Source of the DNA: Novosphingobium sp.
GTDB lineage: Bacteria; Pseudomonadota; Alphaproteobacteria; Sphingomonadales; Sphingomonadaceae
Assembly (NCBI RefSeq): GCF_027486195.1
Contig: NZ_JAIXPP010000001.1
Location: 1 to 64,000, forward strand
Direction: 5' to 3'
DNA length: 64,000 nucleotides
The notes under the pieces were generated by a model. That model had not been told where the DNA came from and ran no database searches. It was given only the letters and a program-made list of their open reading frames with translations. Of this stretch, positions 28,179-37,642 are shown piece by piece. Numbering within the stretch: position 1 is the stretch's first letter; each line of letters opens with the position of its first letter. Both the position numbers and the translations under genes were made by a program.

Positions 28179-29513
28179 ATGATGGTGCGGCAGTTGCGGG
28201 CTGATGTGCTGGTGATCGGCGGGGGCACGGCGGGTTTTGGTGCGGCGCTGGGCGCGGCGCGGCAGGGGGCGCAGGTGCGGCTCATCGAGGGGACCAGCAA
28301 GATCGGCGGGGTGATGGCGTTCTGCCCGGGGATGCCCTGGGGCGGCGGCTATCCGACCGGGCGGAGCATCGGCGGCGTGTTTGGCGAGTTGACCGACCAG
28401 TTGCTGGCGATGAACCCGCCAAAGGCCGAAGTGCGGCCCTCCACGCTGGAAAACTTTGGAGCCGAAGTGATCTACGACCACGAAGCGGCTGTTTTCGCGA
28501 TGTTCCAGATGCTGGAGGATGCCGGCGTCGAGGTGCATCTGGGCACCTTTGCCGGCGCGCCGGTGCTGGAACAGGGGCGGATTGCCCGCGTGGAATGCAC
28601 CGACCGCACCGGGCCGATGGTGATCGAGGCCGGGATGGTGATCGACTGTTCGGGCGACGGCGATACCTCGGCGCGCGCCGGCGTGCCCTTCATGGTGGGC
28701 GACGGGCGCGGGAACATGATGGGCGTGACGCTTTCGTTTTCGATGGTGGGCGCGGACTGGGCGCGCGTGTTTGCAAAAGGCGATCCCTATTTCGAGGAAG
28801 AGGCCGCTGCCGGGATCGCGGCGGGGCTGCTCCATCCCGATCTCGCCAAGCTCTATCTGATGAAGGGTTTTCACCGCGACGCGGTGTTCTGCAATTCGGT
28901 GCATATCCGGGGGGTAGACGGGACCGACCCGCAAGGCGTAGCGCGCGCGACGCAGGAGGGGCGGCGCAGGTGCCATCAGCTGGCACAGTTCCTGGTGGGC
29001 CATGTGCCGGGGTTTGAGCGGGCGCGGATGAGCGAACTGGGGCCGACCGTGGGCGTGCGCGAGACGCGCAAGCTGGAGGCGGTTCACCGCATACTGGCGC
29101 GCGATCTGCGTGCAGGGGCCAAGCCCGCGGACGGCATCGTGGCCTGCGACAATCCGATCGATGACGTGATGCGCGGGGATGCGGACATGACCCACGATGC
29201 GATCGTGGCCGATGGCGATTACTACACGATCCCCTTCCGCGCGATGGTGCCGGAAGCGCCCGCCAACCTGCTGTTTGCCGGGCGGCTGGTCTGCGCCGAT
29301 CCGGCCGCCTTCGCCTCGGTACGCGGGATGCCGCAGTGCATGGCGATGGGGCAGGCAGCGGGGACGGCGGCGGCGCTGGCGCTGGCGGAGGGCATCGCGG
29401 TGCAGGCGCTTGATCCGGCGCGGGTGGTTGCCTCGCTCGCCGCGCAGGGGATGCGCGGGATCGGCGGGGATGCGCTGGTGCGGCATGCGCGCGCGCTGGA
29501 GGACGTGGCATGA
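28179..29513 (+). CDS. FAD-dependent oxidoreductase (FAD_oxidored type)
   Basis: ADVLVIGGGTAGFGAALGAARQG dinucleotide fold, MVIDCSGDGDTSARAG. Confidence 0.85.
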   Translation: MMVRQLRADVLVIGGGTAGFGAALGAARQGAQVRLIEGTSKIGGVMAFCPGMPWGGGYPTGRSIGGVFGELTDQLLAMNPPKAEVRPSTLENFGAEVIYDHEAAVFAMFQMLEDAGVEVHLGTFAGAPVLEQGRIARVECTDRTGPMVIEAGMVIDCSGDGDTSARAGVPFMVGDGRGNMMGVTLSFSMVGADWARVFAKGDPYFEEEAAAGIAAGLLHPDLAKLYLMKGFHRDAVFCNSVHIRGVDGTDPQGVARATQEGRRRCHQLAQFLVGHVPGFERARMSELGPTVGVRETRKLEAVHRILARDLRAGAKPADGIVACDNPIDDVMRGDADMTHDAIVADGDYYTIPFRAMVPEAPANLLFAGRLVCADPAAFASVRGMPQCMAMGQAAGTAAALALAEGIAVQALDPARVVASLAAQGMRGIGGDALVRHARALEDVA

Positions 29514-31918
29514 CGCGGCGGCGCTGGATGCTGGCGCTCGCGCTGGCGGGGCTGCCGACCGGAGCGCCGGCGCAAGAGGCGCCCTCCCCTGCCCTTTCCG
29601 TGCGGATTGACCGCGACGGGTTTGGCGTGCCGCACGTGTTTGGCGAGACTTCGGAAAGCGTGCTCTTTGGCGCGGGCTATGCCGAGGCGCAGGACCGGCT
29701 GGCCGATATGGAGCAATCGCGGCGGCGGGCCTTGGGGCGGCTGGCCGAAGTGCTCGGACCTTCGGCGGTGGCTTCCGACGTGGTTTCGCGCCAGCGGTTG
29801 CCAGACAAGGCCGAGCTTCTGCGCATGTATGGTGCGCTGGGGGGCGAGTATCAGCGGATGATCGCGGCCTATGTGGCAGGGGTGAACCGCGCGATTGCCG
29901 AGATCGAGGCCGACCCGTCGAGACGGACGCCGTATGAATTCACCCAGTGGGGCGTGAAGCCCGAACGCTGGGTGCTGACCGATTTCCTCGCCATGATCGC
30001 AAGCTTTCCACGCGGGCGCGGCGGATCGGAAGTGACCAACCTCGCCTATCTGCAGGCGATGACCCTGCAGCATGGCGAGGCCAAGGGGCGGCAGCTGTTC
30101 AACGATTTGGTGCCGGTGCGCGATCCCGAGACGCCGACGGTGATCCCGCCGGGCGAGGATCTGGCCCCTGCCCAGCCCCTGCCGCAGGCCACATTCCTGA
30201 CGCTGGCACCGCGTGCCAAGCCTGCCGAGCCGATCCCCGCACCGGGCAAGGATCACAGCCGCTGCCTCGTGCTAGGACCGCAGCGCACCGCGAGCGGCAA
30301 GGTGATCATGATGGAAGCGACGGCGGACGGGCCGGAAATCCATCTGCACGGCGGGGGGTTTGACAGCGCGGGGTTCACGATCCCGGCCTTTGGCGTGCCG
30401 ATCATGGGGCGCGGGCCGCATCATGGCTGGCTGGTGACATCGGGCCATGGCGACACGACCGACACCTTCGCCGAGAAGCTCGATCCGAAAAATCCGGACC
30501 GCTACTGGTTCAAGGGCCAGTGGCGGCAGATGGTGCGGCAGACACAGACCATTGCCGTCAAAGGCGCAGCGCCGGTTGTGCGCGATATCCGCTGGACTGT
30601 GCACGGGCCGGTGGTGAGCGAGGACCGGGCCGGCGGCGTTGCCTATGCCCAGCGCTTTGCGATGCGCGGGCATGAGCTGGAGAACTGGGCAGCGTTCGTT
30701 GACATGCAGCGGGCGCGGTCCCTGGCCGAGTTTGGCGCGGCGATGGGCCGGGTCTCGACCAATTTCGGCATTTGCTATGGCAATGAAGGCGGCGAAATCG
30801 GGTTCTGGGAGACGGGGATGATGCCCCGGCGCGCGCCCGGCACCGATCCGCGCCTGCCCACCCCCGGCACCGGCGAGTACGAGTGGCAGGGCTTCCTCTC
30901 GCCCGCCGAGCGGCCGCACATGGTGAACCCGAAACAGGGCTGGATACACGCGTGGAACAGCAAGGCGACCACGTGGAGCCGCGAGGGCGATGACGCACGG
31001 ATGGGGGCGACGTTCCGCACCTGGCTGGGAGCCAAGCTGGCGGCGGGATCAAAGGGCGCGACGCTCCTCGACATGGTGGGCTACAACCGCCAGATCTGGA
31101 ACGCGTTTGGCGCGCGCGACCGGGCCAATGCGCCCCCTGCCATGTTTGCGCCATTCTTGCGCGCGGCCGCGGCGAGCGCGGATGATCCCGAGGTGCGGGA
31201 AGCGGTCGAACTGATGATCGCGTGGAACGGACGCTATGAAGACCGCGATGGTGACGAACGCTATGACAAGGCGGGGCTGACGCTGTTCCGCGCCTGGCTC
31301 GAGATCGCGCCCGAGGTGCTGTTCGGCCCGGTGATGGGCACGTGGTGGAGGGACATCGACGCCAAGCGCTATCAGAAATACCGCACCGCGCTGCTTTACC
31401 GCGTTCTGCAGGGCCCGGTGGCAGGCCTGCCGGTGGAGTTCGACTATCTTGCAGGGCGCCCGCGCGAGGCTGTGGTGGCCGAGACGATCAGGCGCACGAT
31501 TGCGGCAGTGCGGCCGCAGTTCGGCTCTGCCGCGATGGCCGAGTGGAAGCGGCCGATCTTCTGGAAATACTTCACCGACGATGCCGAGGACCCGGCCCGC
31601 CCGCCGCTGCCCGATGATGACGAACGCGGCAAGGCGCTGTGGGGCGAGCTTGGTCTGGGGCCGAAGATGATCCCCCTGAACGGCGGCGAAGGCTGGGTGG
31701 GGATGATGGAGCTGACCCCGGGCGCGCCCGCGATCTACACGATCACCGAAGTGGGCGGGCAGAACCAGTTCATCGATCCGGCGGGGCGCGGCACGGTGCA
31801 CCTGACCGATCAGGTGCAGATGCATGCGCAGAACAGGTTCAAGCGGATCGATCTGACGCCTGAAGCGATTGCGGCGGGGCGGGAAAGTTCGGTGACGCTG
31901 ACTTACGCGCCCCAATAG
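29510..31918 (+). CDS. Penicillin-acylase-family Ntn hydrolase, secreted
   Basis: Signal peptide, RDGFGVPHVFGETSESVLFGAGYAEAQDRL; starts within the stop of the FAD oxidoreductase (ATGA). Confidence 0.85.
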   Translation: MTRRRWMLALALAGLPTGAPAQEAPSPALSVRIDRDGFGVPHVFGETSESVLFGAGYAEAQDRLADMEQSRRRALGRLAEVLGPSAVASDVVSRQRLPDKAELLRMYGALGGEYQRMIAAYVAGVNRAIAEIEADPSRRTPYEFTQWGVKPERWVLTDFLAMIASFPRGRGGSEVTNLAYLQAMTLQHGEAKGRQLFNDLVPVRDPETPTVIPPGEDLAPAQPLPQATFLTLAPRAKPAEPIPAPGKDHSRCLVLGPQRTASGKVIMMEATADGPEIHLHGGGFDSAGFTIPAFGVPIMGRGPHHGWLVTSGHGDTTDTFAEKLDPKNPDRYWFKGQWRQMVRQTQTIAVKGAAPVVRDIRWTVHGPVVSEDRAGGVAYAQRFAMRGHELENWAAFVDMQRARSLAEFGAAMGRVSTNFGICYGNEGGEIGFWETGMMPRRAPGTDPRLPTPGTGEYEWQGFLSPAERPHMVNPKQGWIHAWNSKATTWSREGDDARMGATFRTWLGAKLAAGSKGATLLDMVGYNRQIWNAFGARDRANAPPAMFAPFLRAAAASADDPEVREAVELMIAWNGRYEDRDGDERYDKAGLTLFRAWLEIAPEVLFGPVMGTWWRDIDAKRYQKYRTALLYRVLQGPVAGLPVEFDYLAGRPREAVVAETIRRTIAAVRPQFGSAAMAEWKRPIFWKYFTDDAEDPARPPLPDDDERGKALWGELGLGPKMIPLNGGEGWVGMMELTPGAPAIYTITEVGGQNQFIDPAGRGTVHLTDQVQMHAQNRFKRIDLTPEAIAAGRESSVTLTYAPQ

Positions 31919-32906: not shown

Positions 32907-33509
32907 CTAGCCGGCCAGCGCGGCGACAATGGCGCGCTCGACAATCGCGCCGGCCAGATCGGCAGTGGTCATGGCGCCGGGCATGGGGCGGATCACGCCC
33001 TTGCGGCGCATCGAGGCGAAACCGTAGATCGCGGACCAGAATGCAAGGGTGCGCAGGTCTGCCGCTTCGCCATCAAGGCCGGGCATGCTGGCAGCGACTG
33101 CCGCGCGCACAGCGGCGTGCCCGATCTGCTGGAACGCAAGAAGATCTGGATCGAGCGCGGGGGACGTCAGCTCGCTTTCATACATCAGATCAACGAGATG
33201 CGGGTTCTCTTCGGCAAAGCGGATGAATTGTGTGCCGAGCGCGCGCAGCTTGTCCGCAGGGTGATCGGCAGTGGCCGCAACCGCGTCCGACCGGGCGAGC
33301 ATTTCGCGAAAGCCATCGAGCGCGAGCGCGAGGAGGAACGCGCGGCGATCCGGGAAGTGGTGATAGGGCGCGCCGGGCGAGACACCGACCTGCTGCGCAA
33401 GGATGCGCATCGAGAGGCCGAGATGGCCGTGCGCTTCCACCCAGGCGCGGCCGGCCCTCAGCAGATCGCCCCTCAGGTCTTCCTTGTGGTACGGCTTCTT
33501 CGTGGACAT
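32907..33509 (-). CDS. TetR family regulator
   Basis: LSMRILAQQVGVSPGAPYHHFPDRRAFLLAL HTH. Confidence 0.9.
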   Translation of the reverse strand: MSTKKPYHKEDLRGDLLRAGRAWVEAHGHLGLSMRILAQQVGVSPGAPYHHFPDRRAFLLALALDGFREMLARSDAVAATADHPADKLRALGTQFIRFAEENPHLVDLMYESELTSPALDPDLLAFQQIGHAAVRAAVAASMPGLDGEAADLRTLAFWSAIYGFASMRRKGVIRPMPGAMTTADLAGAIVERAIVAALAG

Positions 33510-33560: not shown

Positions 33561-33965
33561 TCAGGCCACGCAGAGCGTCGCGAGGCGGGCCTCGTGCATC
33601 GGGAACACGTGTACGTCGGGCGGAAAATAGGAATAGCGGATGCGGGCGAGCACTTCGACCTTGTGAATGCCGGGTTCGAGGCCGCCGGGCTTGTCGACGA
33701 GGATTTCGCCCCATTCGAGCAGGCCCCAGCGCGCGGTGGTTTCCTCGCGCATTTCGGCGAGCACATAGACTTCATCGCGGATACCGAGGCGGTTCTGCTC
33801 GAAGCCGTAGACCTCGCCATCGACGGTGACGGTGAAGCCATCGAGCTGCGAGAGGCGAGTGCCGTGGTAGTTGGGGATGCGGATGCGGACCGCAAAGCCG
33901 GTGCGCGCGCCGACAGGGCCGATGTTGCGGAAGCCGGTGCTCTGGATGAGCTGGTGTTCGAGCAT
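33561..33965 (-). CDS. DUF6379 / C-glycoside deglycosidase beta-subunit-like protein
   Basis: TVTVDGEVYGFEQNRLGIRDEVYVLAEMREETTARWGLLEWGEILVDKPGGLEPGIHKVEVLARIRYSYFP matches the remembered CGDB pattern. Confidence 0.75.
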   Translation of the reverse strand: MLEHQLIQSTGFRNIGPVGARTGFAVRIRIPNYHGTRLSQLDGFTVTVDGEVYGFEQNRLGIRDEVYVLAEMREETTARWGLLEWGEILVDKPGGLEPGIHKVEVLARIRYSYFPPDVHVFPMHEARLATLCVA

Positions 33966-34000
33966 CTTGATGTTCCTATGGATTGTGCCGAGGGGTGCGC

Positions 34001-34906
34001 TCAGGCGAGCAGACCGAGATCGTATTCGCGCTCCAGCTTGCGGAGCAGGACCTGCTGGCGGCGGACCTGATCGATGGCGCGCCAGGGGCTGCGCAGGCCT
34101 TCGTATTCGCTGGAGAGGTAACCGGAGTAGCCCGAGCGCTTGATCGCCGCGATGACCGGGCGCCACGGGATGTTGAGGTCTTCCAGAGTGTCGTCGATAT
34201 CGTGGAACTTGGCCTGAATGAACACGACGTACTGCGCGATATCGAGGAACTGTTCGGGCGGCACCTTGATGCCGTTCAGGAAAGCCATGTGCTCGCGCAT
34301 CTCGTCGTTGATCTGGTGCGAGCCCCAGTGGGTGAGCGGACGGTCCTGAAAGATGCCGGTATCGATCATCAGGCCGAAGTTCCTGGTGCCGGTGCGCTCG
34401 ATGAAATCGATATAGCCTTGGGTGACGCGGTGCTTGATCGGCGTGGGCGCGTGGATTTCCGGGCAGATGATGATGCCAAGCTGGTGCGCGAGATCGAGGT
34501 TGCGCTCGACATAGGCCTGCCATTGCGGATCGGGATCAAGCTCGTGCGAAGTGACGCCGAACTTGGGGCGCAGGAACTTGAAGCCGAGGCGGTGGGCGAG
34601 CCGCAAGTCCCGCGCCAGCTCGGCCGCGCCTTCCGCGATGGTGAGATTGCGGGTTAGCGTGATGCGGGTATCGACCCAGGCACAGAAGTTGGTCGGTTCG
34701 AGCTTGTAGCGATCGACGAGCGCGAACCATTGATCGAGCCACGCCGATGACGGCTCGGGATAGCCTTCGACTTGCCCTTCGCCAAGGATCTCGATGCCGG
34801 TCGCGCCGGTATCGGCGATGTGATCGAACGCGTCTTCCAGCGTCATCACCGAACCGTAATCGTTGACGTAGCTGTAGACCGAGACGCCGTATTGGAGAGA
34901 GCCCAT
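34001..34906 (-). CDS. Xylose-isomerase-like TIM barrel (sugar phosphate isomerase/epimerase fold); candidate C-glycoside deglycosidase alpha subunit
   Basis: MGSLQYGVSVYSYVNDYGSVMTLEDAFDHIADTGATGIEIL; candidate metal ligands in CPEIHAP, MIDTG, KFHDID, SSEYEG; gene pair with DUF6379. Confidence 0.78.
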   Translation of the reverse strand: MGSLQYGVSVYSYVNDYGSVMTLEDAFDHIADTGATGIEILGEGQVEGYPEPSSAWLDQWFALVDRYKLEPTNFCAWVDTRITLTRNLTIAEGAAELARDLRLAHRLGFKFLRPKFGVTSHELDPDPQWQAYVERNLDLAHQLGIIICPEIHAPTPIKHRVTQGYIDFIERTGTRNFGLMIDTGIFQDRPLTHWGSHQINDEMREHMAFLNGIKVPPEQFLDIAQYVVFIQAKFHDIDDTLEDLNIPWRPVIAAIKRSGYSGYLSSEYEGLRSPWRAIDQVRRQQVLLRKLEREYDLGLLA

Positions 34907-34970: not shown

Positions 34971-34999
34971 CATCTAATCGCTGATTAAATTGCGCGCAA
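34971..34999 (-). promoter_or_regulatory. Candidate promoter of the CGD-like pair with embedded 5-3-5 palindrome
   Basis: Minus strand TTGCGC-N17-TAGATG; spacer/-10 holds TAATC-AGC-GATTA (34975..34987). Confidence 0.4.
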
Positions 35000-35091: not shown

Positions 35092-36900
35092 TCAGTGATT
35101 GTCGCGCGGTAGACCCATGGTCTGCGCGATGCGCTGGTACTTTTCCGCGCCTTCGAGGATGCCGCCGGCTTCGAGCTGGCCAACGCGCTCGCGGTAGATT
35201 TCCTGCCATGGCGTCTGCGAAGGGGGATAGGGATAGCCCCCGGCTGCTTCGAGTGCGGCGCGGCGGGAGGCGAGTTCGCAATCCGGCAGCAGGATATCCG
35301 CCGTGCCCTTGCGAAGATCGATGCGCACCCGGTCGCCCGTCCGCAGCAAGGCAAGGCCGCCCATCGCGGCGGCTTCGGGGCTGGCGTTGAGGATAGAGGG
35401 GCTGCCCGACGTGCCCGACTGGCGCCCGTCACCGATGCAGGGGAGCGCATTGACCCCGGCCTGGATCAGATAAACCGGCGCGCGCATGTTCACGACTTCG
35501 GCCGAGCCCGGATAGCCGATGGGGCCAGTGCCGCGCATGAACAGCACCGATTCCGGGGTGATCCCGGTCGCCGGATCGTCGATGCGGGCGTGGTAATCCT
35601 CCGGCCCATCAAACACCACGGCGGGGCCTTCGAAGGCTTCGGGATCATCGGGGTTGGAGAGATAGCGCGCGCGGAATTCCGGGCTGATCACGCAAGTCTT
35701 CATGATCGCCGAGTTGAACAGGTTGCCCGAAAGCACGATGAATCCGGCATCGTGGACCAGCGGCTGATCGAACGGACGGATCACGCGCTCGTCCTCGATC
35801 TCCGCGTCGCGGCAGTTTTCGCCGATGGTCCGGCCATTCACGGTCATCGCACCTTCGGCGATCAAGCCCTGCGCCATCAACTGCGCGACGACGGCAGGGA
35901 CACCGCCGGCGCGGCAATAGTCCTCACCGAGGTATTCGCCCGCCGGCTGGAGATTGACCAGTAGCGGCACCTTGTGGCCGAGCCGCTGCCATTCGGTGAG
36001 CGGGAGATCGACGCCAACGTGGCGGGCAATCGCGGCCAGATGGACCGGCGCGTTGGTCGAGCCGCCGATGGCCGAATTGACGACAATGGCGTTGTGGAAG
36101 GCCTCCAGCGTCATGATGTCGGACGGCTTCAGATCTTCATGCACCATTTCGACCGCGCGCTTGCCGGTGCGCCAGGCGCATTCCTGCCGGTCGCGGTAGG
36201 GAGCAGGGATGGCGGCTGAACCGGGCAGCATCATGCCGAGCGCCTCCGCCAGGCTGTTCATCGTGGTCGCCGTGCCCATCGTGTTGCAATAGCCGGTCGA
36301 GGGCGCGGAGCTGGCGACGAGCTTGATGAAGCCCATCTCGTCGAGTTCGCCCTTGGCCAGCAGCTCGCGCGCTTTCCACACGATCGTGCCCGAGCCGGTG
36401 CGCTCGCCCTTGAACCAGCCATTGAGCATGGGGCCGACCGAGAGCGCGATGGCGGGAATGTTGACCGTCGCTGCGGCCATCAGCAGCGCGGGCGTGGTCT
36501 TGTCACAGCCGGTGGTGAGGACGACGCCGTCGATGGGATAACCATAGAGCGCCTCGACAAGGCCGAGGTAGGCGAGATTGCGGTCGAGCGCGGCGGTGGG
36601 CCGCTTGCCGGTTTCCTGGATCGGATGGACCGGGATTTCGAGCGCGATGCCGCCCTCCTCGCGGATGCCTTCGCGCACGCGCTCCGCGAGCACGATATGG
36701 TGGCGGTTGCAGGGTGAAAGGTCGCTGCCCGTCTGCGCGATACCGATGACCGGCTTGCCGGAGCGCAATTCCTCGAGGCTTAGCCCGAAGTTCAGATAGC
36801 GCTCGAGATAGAGCGCGGTCATGTCGATGTTGGACGGATTGTTGAACCAGGCCTGCGAGCGCAGCTTGCGGGTGGGCGGGACGTCATGCGTATCGGTCAT
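35092..36900 (-). CDS. xylD: D-xylonate dehydratase-like IlvD/Edd family enzyme
   Basis: [59 protein letters not shown] and C-terminal [27 protein letters not shown], as in Caulobacter XylD from memory. Confidence 0.85.
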
Positions 36901-36932
36901 GGCAGCTTTCCAGGGTCTTGATGCAGCAGGTA

Positions 36933-37145
36933 TCAGCGGGCCTTGGCCGCCTTGCCGACGCGGAAGATCATCACGTGGCGATAGGGCTTGCTGGGATCGA
37001 CGCGGGCAGAAAGGAAGCCCGGCTGTTTGGGCGCATCGGGGAACTTTTGCGCCTCCAGTGCGCTGGCAGATACGAAGAGCCTTGCGCCGCAGCGCGGTCG
37101 GCCTCTGGATTCCATCCTGGTGTCCCTCTTCAACCCGCGCCGCAA
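36933..37145 (-). pseudogene. C-terminal stump of an aldose 1-epimerase (GalM)-like gene
   Basis: [35 protein letters not shown] resembles the GalM C-terminus (E-Q-FPD-PN-P-FPS..L.PG..Y). Confidence 0.55.
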
Positions 37146-37240
37146 AGCACCATTGACGCTTGCTTATCCCGAATATAGTCTGACAAATGGAATGCGCGCA
37201 AGACCGATGCTCTTCGCCCCGCGCAAGGACCGAGCAGAGG

Positions 37241-37642
37241 ATGCGACCGCCCATGCCGCCTGCGGCCCCAGCCCAGACTAATGCCCAGATAACCGAGGAA
37301 TCCACCCAGAACTCCGGCCCGGCGCTGACATTGCTGGCGAGCCTTTTCTTCATGTGGGGCTTCATCACAGTGATCAACTACACGCTGCTGCCGCACCTGC
37401 GCAGCGTGTTCGATCTCAACTATACGCAGACAATATTGATCAAATCCATGTGGTTCATCGCCTACTTCGTCGCGTCGATCCCTTCGGCTCGGCTGATCGA
37501 ACGGGTGGGTTACAAGAAATCGCTGGTGATCGGCCTTGCCATCATGGCGGCGGGCGCGCTGGGCATGGTGGTGGCGGCCTCGATCCCGTCCCACGACGTG
37601 ACGCTGGCGATGCTGCCCAGTGCGACGGCGCGCCGCGCCTGA
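37241..37642 (+). pseudogene. N-terminal stump of a FucP-like MFS sugar transporter
   Basis: [78 protein letters not shown] then abrupt end after about 3 TM helices. Confidence 0.75.

Follow-up and report, generated by a model that had tools for sequence, protein, structure and literature searches.

In a 64,000-nucleotide stretch of a Novosphingobium-type genome (contig C119 of genome G000; hereafter the window), we characterized two adjacent genes, cgdA and cgdB, that are predicted to encode a TetR-controlled, Mn2+-dependent β-eliminase of 3-keto-glycosides whose sugar would be oxidized elsewhere. We place the probability of this reading, whose substrate and activity are predicted, at about 0.8. 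C-Glycosides withstand ordinary glycosidases, and to our knowledge little is known about their recycling outside the gut. The assignment of cgdAB to the C-glycoside deglycosidase (CGD) family is strongly supported, and the nature of the substrate, C- or O-glycoside, is the least certain part of the explanation. Table 1 lists the features of the region.

Table 1. The cgdAB region of the window and its adjoining genes.
Feature	Coordinates	Strand	Description
tetR	32907–33509	−	TetR-family regulator (TetR_N + TetR_C_33; PF00440, PF13305); presumed repressor
cgdB	33561–33965	−	CGD β subunit; ATG start, 134 aa; PF19906 CGDB (formerly DUF6379)
cgdA	34001–34906	−	CGD α subunit; 301 aa, short (lid-less) TIM barrel; PF01261 AP_endonuc_2
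Operator-like palindrome, ATTTAATCAGCGATTAGAT (minus strand)	34972–34990		Presumed TetR site, 66 bp upstream of the cgdA start codon
ilvD	35092–36900	−	ilvD-type (xylonate) dehydratase, co-directional with cgdA; ends 185 bp upstream of cgdA
galM/MFS remnants	36932–37642		End of galM and first part of an MFS gene, between ilvD and gguC

The CgdA–CgdB pair and its relatives

The first-pass annotation had read these genes as a CGD α/β pair, with a DUF6379/CGDB protein ending at 33561 and a TIM barrel encoded by the adjacent co-directional gene. These assignments hold. CgdB scores 113.5 bits (cut-off 27.6; E = 5.9e-33) in a match that spans the full PF19906 CGDB model. CgdA matches PF01261 AP_endonuc_2 (E = 6.9e-16), and its top PDB hits are CGD α subunits whether the comparison is by sequence or by fold. 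Both genes are real and intact and lie on the same strand, 35 bp apart; the 320-amino acid open reading frame ending at 33561 is merely an in-frame upstream extension of cgdB. We compared the neighborhoods, counted within six genes, of 39 homologous (clade I) pairs that include the window, and cgdB adjoins cgdA in every one. Comparison with the sister genome G073 gives dN 0.04 and dS 0.60 for cgdA (dN/dS about 0.06) and dN 0.05 and dS 0.37 for cgdB (about 0.12), and both genes are under strong purifying selection. An Rfam scan of the cgdAB region returned no family, and neither a σ70-like promoter nor a terminator was found there.

Using an AlphaFold2 model of CgdA (pLDDT 88.4, pTM 0.88), we obtained CGDs without exception at Foldseek ranks 1–16. 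The top match is 8QRZ (TM 0.90, 57% identity over the α part), a Microbacterium testaceum protein that its depositors' title claims to be a C-glucosyl deglycosidase. In PDB sequence searches, CgdA matches 8QRZ first (E = 4.7e-110) and then DfgA, and CgdB matches the N-terminal part of 8QRZ, DfgB, and DgpB. Because the window pair combines a CGDB domain with a CGD-type TIM barrel, retains the catalytic His and Glu and the β-subunit Tyr, and has a CGD as its nearest solved structure, we assign it to the CGD family.

The M. testaceum enzyme (8QRZ, 8UN2) shares the short α form and a homologous CGDB part with the window proteins, but it is actinobacterial and carries β and α in one 435-residue chain instead of two gene products. 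A Marinomonas homologue is likewise a natural β–α fusion. These two fusions make an association of CgdA with CgdB likely and support, by analogy, the view that the window proteins would work as one heteromeric enzyme. Next to the fusion gene of Marinomonas spartinae (L076:9566–10891) are genes for Gfo/Idh, a TIM barrel, MFS, and GMC, together with a set resembling aromatic-degradation genes.

Better-described CGDs are more distant. DfgA–DfgB of Eubacterium cellulosolvens (EuCGD; 7BVS, 7DRE), the sister branch of clade I (support 100/97), also has a short α subunit without the lid insert, a β subunit, and the catalytic residues, but it shows 35% identity, has His instead of Gln at one metal-ligand position, and comes from an anaerobe with other gene neighbors. 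The Deinococcus aerius CGD (8QVC, 8UMC) and a second pair on contig C114 of the window's own genome are two-gene α/β CGDs with the same catalytic residues; they differ from the window pair in their long α form, their His ligand, and an identity of 27–30%. DgpB–DgpC of strain PUE (PuCGD/PuCGE) shares the catalytic His, the β-subunit Tyr, and a metal-dependent β-elimination mechanism, whereas it is about 25% identical, specific for C8-glycosides, heterooctameric, and equipped with a His ligand. The O-glycoside eliminase AtOGE of Agrobacterium, in contrast, has no reported sequence similarity to CGDs and no β subunit (PMC10628242).

Active site and proposed reaction

In AgCGD2, the metal ligands are Glu147, Asp179, His269, Lys271, and Glu305, with His149 as the proposed base and Glu307 as its helper (PMC8563793). 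The corresponding metal-site positions of CgdA are E150, D182, Q231, K233, and E267, and H152 and E269, both invariant, occupy the base and helper positions. All of these residues except Q231 are identical in the six CGD structures compared. The first-pass annotation had proposed E150, D182, H235, and E267 as the metal ligands. Three of the four match known ligands; H235 does not, as the family ligand position aligned with AgCGD2 His269 is Gln231. H235 sits two residues past K233 and is not conserved, as a number of other CGDs have F, I, Y, or W there; we reject it as a ligand on this ground.

The Gln at this position counts against our preferred reading. PuCGD and MiCGD lose much of their activity when Ala replaces the ligand His (PMC8563793), and the same exchange at the homologous His leaves AtOGE almost inactive (PMC10628242). 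8QRZ carries the same Gln, by analogy with which the residue may be tolerated in CgdA, predicted here to bind metal. Gln is fixed throughout clade I (which includes the window pair, 8QRZ, and Marinomonas). In a maximum-likelihood tree from which the ligand column was excluded, and which contains long branches, the distribution of His and Gln needs two changes, and a topology constrained to unite the Gln sequences in one clade is rejected (p-AU 0.001). This provides good but not final evidence that the difference arose independently at least twice, possibly in either direction. Gln likewise replaces the ligand His in a second, long-form CGD clade (the α subunits of L007–L032), which is related to the D. 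aerius CGD.

In the reaction proposed for CgdA–CgdB, the sugar of an aryl glycoside would first be oxidized at its C3 hydroxyl by a separate oxidoreductase. The α-subunit metal site would hold the resulting 3-keto sugar, His152, aided by Glu269, would abstract the proton at C2, and the β-subunit residue Tyr33 would stabilize the ionized phenol of the aglycone. Elimination would then split the glycosidic bond to yield the aglycone and a 2-hydroxy-3-keto-glycal.

Tyr33 is invariant across 21 sequences and aligns with PuCGE Tyr39, with an offset consistent with DgpB; loss of Tyr39 abolishes C–C cleavage and hardly affects C–O cleavage (PMC10628242). PuCGE acts on 3-keto-phlorizin in addition to 3-keto C-glucosides (PMC10628242), so the natural task of cgdAB may be something other than C–C cleavage. 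We weighed the possibility that cgdAB encodes a lyase sharing the CGD fold and mechanism but using 3-keto O-glycosides, or both classes, as its substrates in nature, with C–C cleavage absent or incidental. In keeping with this possibility, homologous loci often contain genes for PF06439 3-keto-disaccharide hydrolases and for GH1 enzymes, both of which use O-glycosides, and the His-to-Gln change has the potential to alter specificity. An O-glycoside role is harder to reconcile with the retention of a dedicated β subunit bearing the Tyr that is needed for C–C but not C–O cleavage, with the lack of any β subunit in the O-specific AtOGE, and with the deposition of the nearest solved homologue as a C-glucosyl deglycosidase. 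We regard this role as tenable yet doubtful, and specificity of cgdAB for C-glycosides as likely.

Regulation, neighborhood, and gene loss

The tetR gene lies 51 bp downstream of cgdB in the same direction, and a homologous TetR gene is found near 33/39 clade I pairs. We first spotted a 19-bp palindrome upstream of cgdA in close relatives, and cgdA promoters alone were used for its discovery. Sites matching the consensus ATYTRATCNNNGATYARAT with ≤2 mismatches number 67 in 862 kb of homologous loci, compared to 0.7 in local shuffles. In the clade I set, about 86% of the sequence is coding, yet 64/65 sites fall between genes. They precede cgdA, tetR, PF06439, Gfo/Idh, TonB, epimerase, FAH, and FAD-monooxygenase genes. 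The 64-kb window contains a single site, which is exact (0 expected), and we found no second exact copy in the whole genome. Sites with 1–2 mismatches elsewhere in this genome lie at genes without an evident link to sugar metabolism, are probably due to chance, and were rejected as operators.

The palindrome marks the window and 26 other loci from Novosphingobium, Sphingomonas, and Alteraurantiacibacter. The exact form is absent from 14/38 clade I loci, several of which show, by eye, a GCTTAA/TTAAGC-type variant. Ramlibacter has neither TetR nor palindrome, which fits a link between the two; Alteraurantiacibacter has the palindrome and no TetR in the DNA examined, which such a link does not explain. 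Because of the gene linkage, we consider that TetR probably binds the palindrome and represses cgdAB, so that cgdAB and the downstream tetR would form one unit.

The neighbors of the homologous pairs count in favor of a role in 3-keto-sugar metabolism. TonB receptor genes occur near 17 of the 39 pairs, PF06439 genes near 16, PhyH and GH1 genes near 10 each, aldose epimerase genes near 9, and Gfo/Idh genes near 8; PF06439 and Gfo/Idh are 3-keto-sugar genes. PF06439 proteins have been tied to 3-keto-sugar hydrolysis through the 3-ketotrehalose hydrolase BT2157 and the proposed 3′-ketolactose hydrolase of Caulobacter (PMC9007349). The cgdAB locus itself counts in the other direction, as we found no 3-oxidase, transporter, or TonB receptor within it.

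Other loci of the same genome contain such genes. The C114 pair (L003), which is of the D. aerius type, lies inside a full cluster with genes for a GMC oxidoreductase, Gluconate_2-dh3, Gfo/Idh, a TIM barrel, GH3, GH43, a VanA-type Rieske oxygenase, an MFS transporter, and a TonB receptor. On contig C107 (L118:7151–12420), a TonB receptor, a PF06439 hydrolase, a GMC oxidoreductase, and a Gluconate_2-dh3 subunit are encoded in a row, probably constituting another 3-keto-glycoside locus. As a guess, the two GMC + Gluconate_2-dh3 pairs, which are of the GlycDH type, could supply the 3-oxidation for cgdAB.

The first-pass annotation had placed the pair in a sugar locus, and the immediate surroundings invite that description: beyond the co-directional ilvD lie genes for AraD1 (gguC), XylB, and XylA. 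If cgdAB belonged to this xylose/xylonate pathway, it would act on a xylose-derived or C-xyloside substrate, and in G073 a single contig again carries ilvD and cgdA, separated by 13 kb that include GH10 xylanase and GH5 genes. The wider comparison does not sustain the description. Only 1/39 clade I pairs, the window itself, has ilvD or gguC nearby, and none of the 38 pairs from other genomes does. The palindrome occurs at the cgdA promoter and at none of the xylose promoters of the window, and Novosphingobium fuchskuhlense has cgdA–cgdB–tetR in a genome without a close ilvD homologue. We therefore reject membership in the xylose pathway as very improbable. On this comparative evidence, cgdAB–tetR is a separate TetR-linked unit that appears to have come to adjoin the xylose genes in the window lineage, and C-xylosides as substrates gain nothing from these neighbors.

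The gene order in G073 is gguC, aldehyde dehydrogenase, MFS, galM, ilvD, about 13 kb that includes the GH10 and GH5 genes, cgdA, cgdB, epimerase, PhyH, PF06439, and tetR. Between cgdB and tetR, the window has no counterpart of the epimerase, PhyH, and PF06439 genes; the aldehyde dehydrogenase gene and the 13-kb block are missing as well, and the truncated galM and MFS remnants point to deletions in the window lineage or to an assembly error. A search of the rest of the window's own genome, which is 91.7% complete, gave no close homologue of either the aldehyde dehydrogenase or the PF06439 protein of G073. Together with the one exact palindrome left in the genome, these losses raise the question of whether cgdAB has survived from a larger cluster without any remaining function, its enzyme left with no role after the genes for oxidase, hydrolase, and uptake had disappeared. 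We think this unlikely, given that both frames are intact with dN/dS values indicative of constraint, that all catalytic residues and the exact palindrome are retained, and that N. fuchskuhlense has the same compact arrangement. Elsewhere in the window, a large open reading frame (29510–31918) reads like a penicillin-acylase-type hydrolase and lies beside one for an FAD-dependent oxidoreductase; it is also present in the sister locus L063.

Implications for CGDs in sphingomonads

The kind of enzyme that cgdAB would encode is already known; what merits following is the gene set defined by the operator and the repeated change of a metal ligand. The latter offers a handle, via mutagenesis, on the role of this ligand in C–C bond cleavage. 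Taking both together, we tentatively raise a possibility, itself open to considerable doubt, in which the His-to-Gln exchange in two CGD clades would mark changed metal use or substrates, and the genes linked by TetR and its palindrome (CGD, PF06439 hydrolase, PhyH dioxygenase, Gfo/Idh, aldose epimerase, and TonB receptor) would make up an undescribed sphingomonad pathway for aryl glycosides beyond those of known CGDs. The candidate operator also points to a set of genes that probably work together with the lyase. For this CGD clade of Novosphingobium, Sphingomonas, and a few other Proteobacteria, a candidate regulator and operator are now in hand, and the ligand of TetR could lead to the natural substrate.
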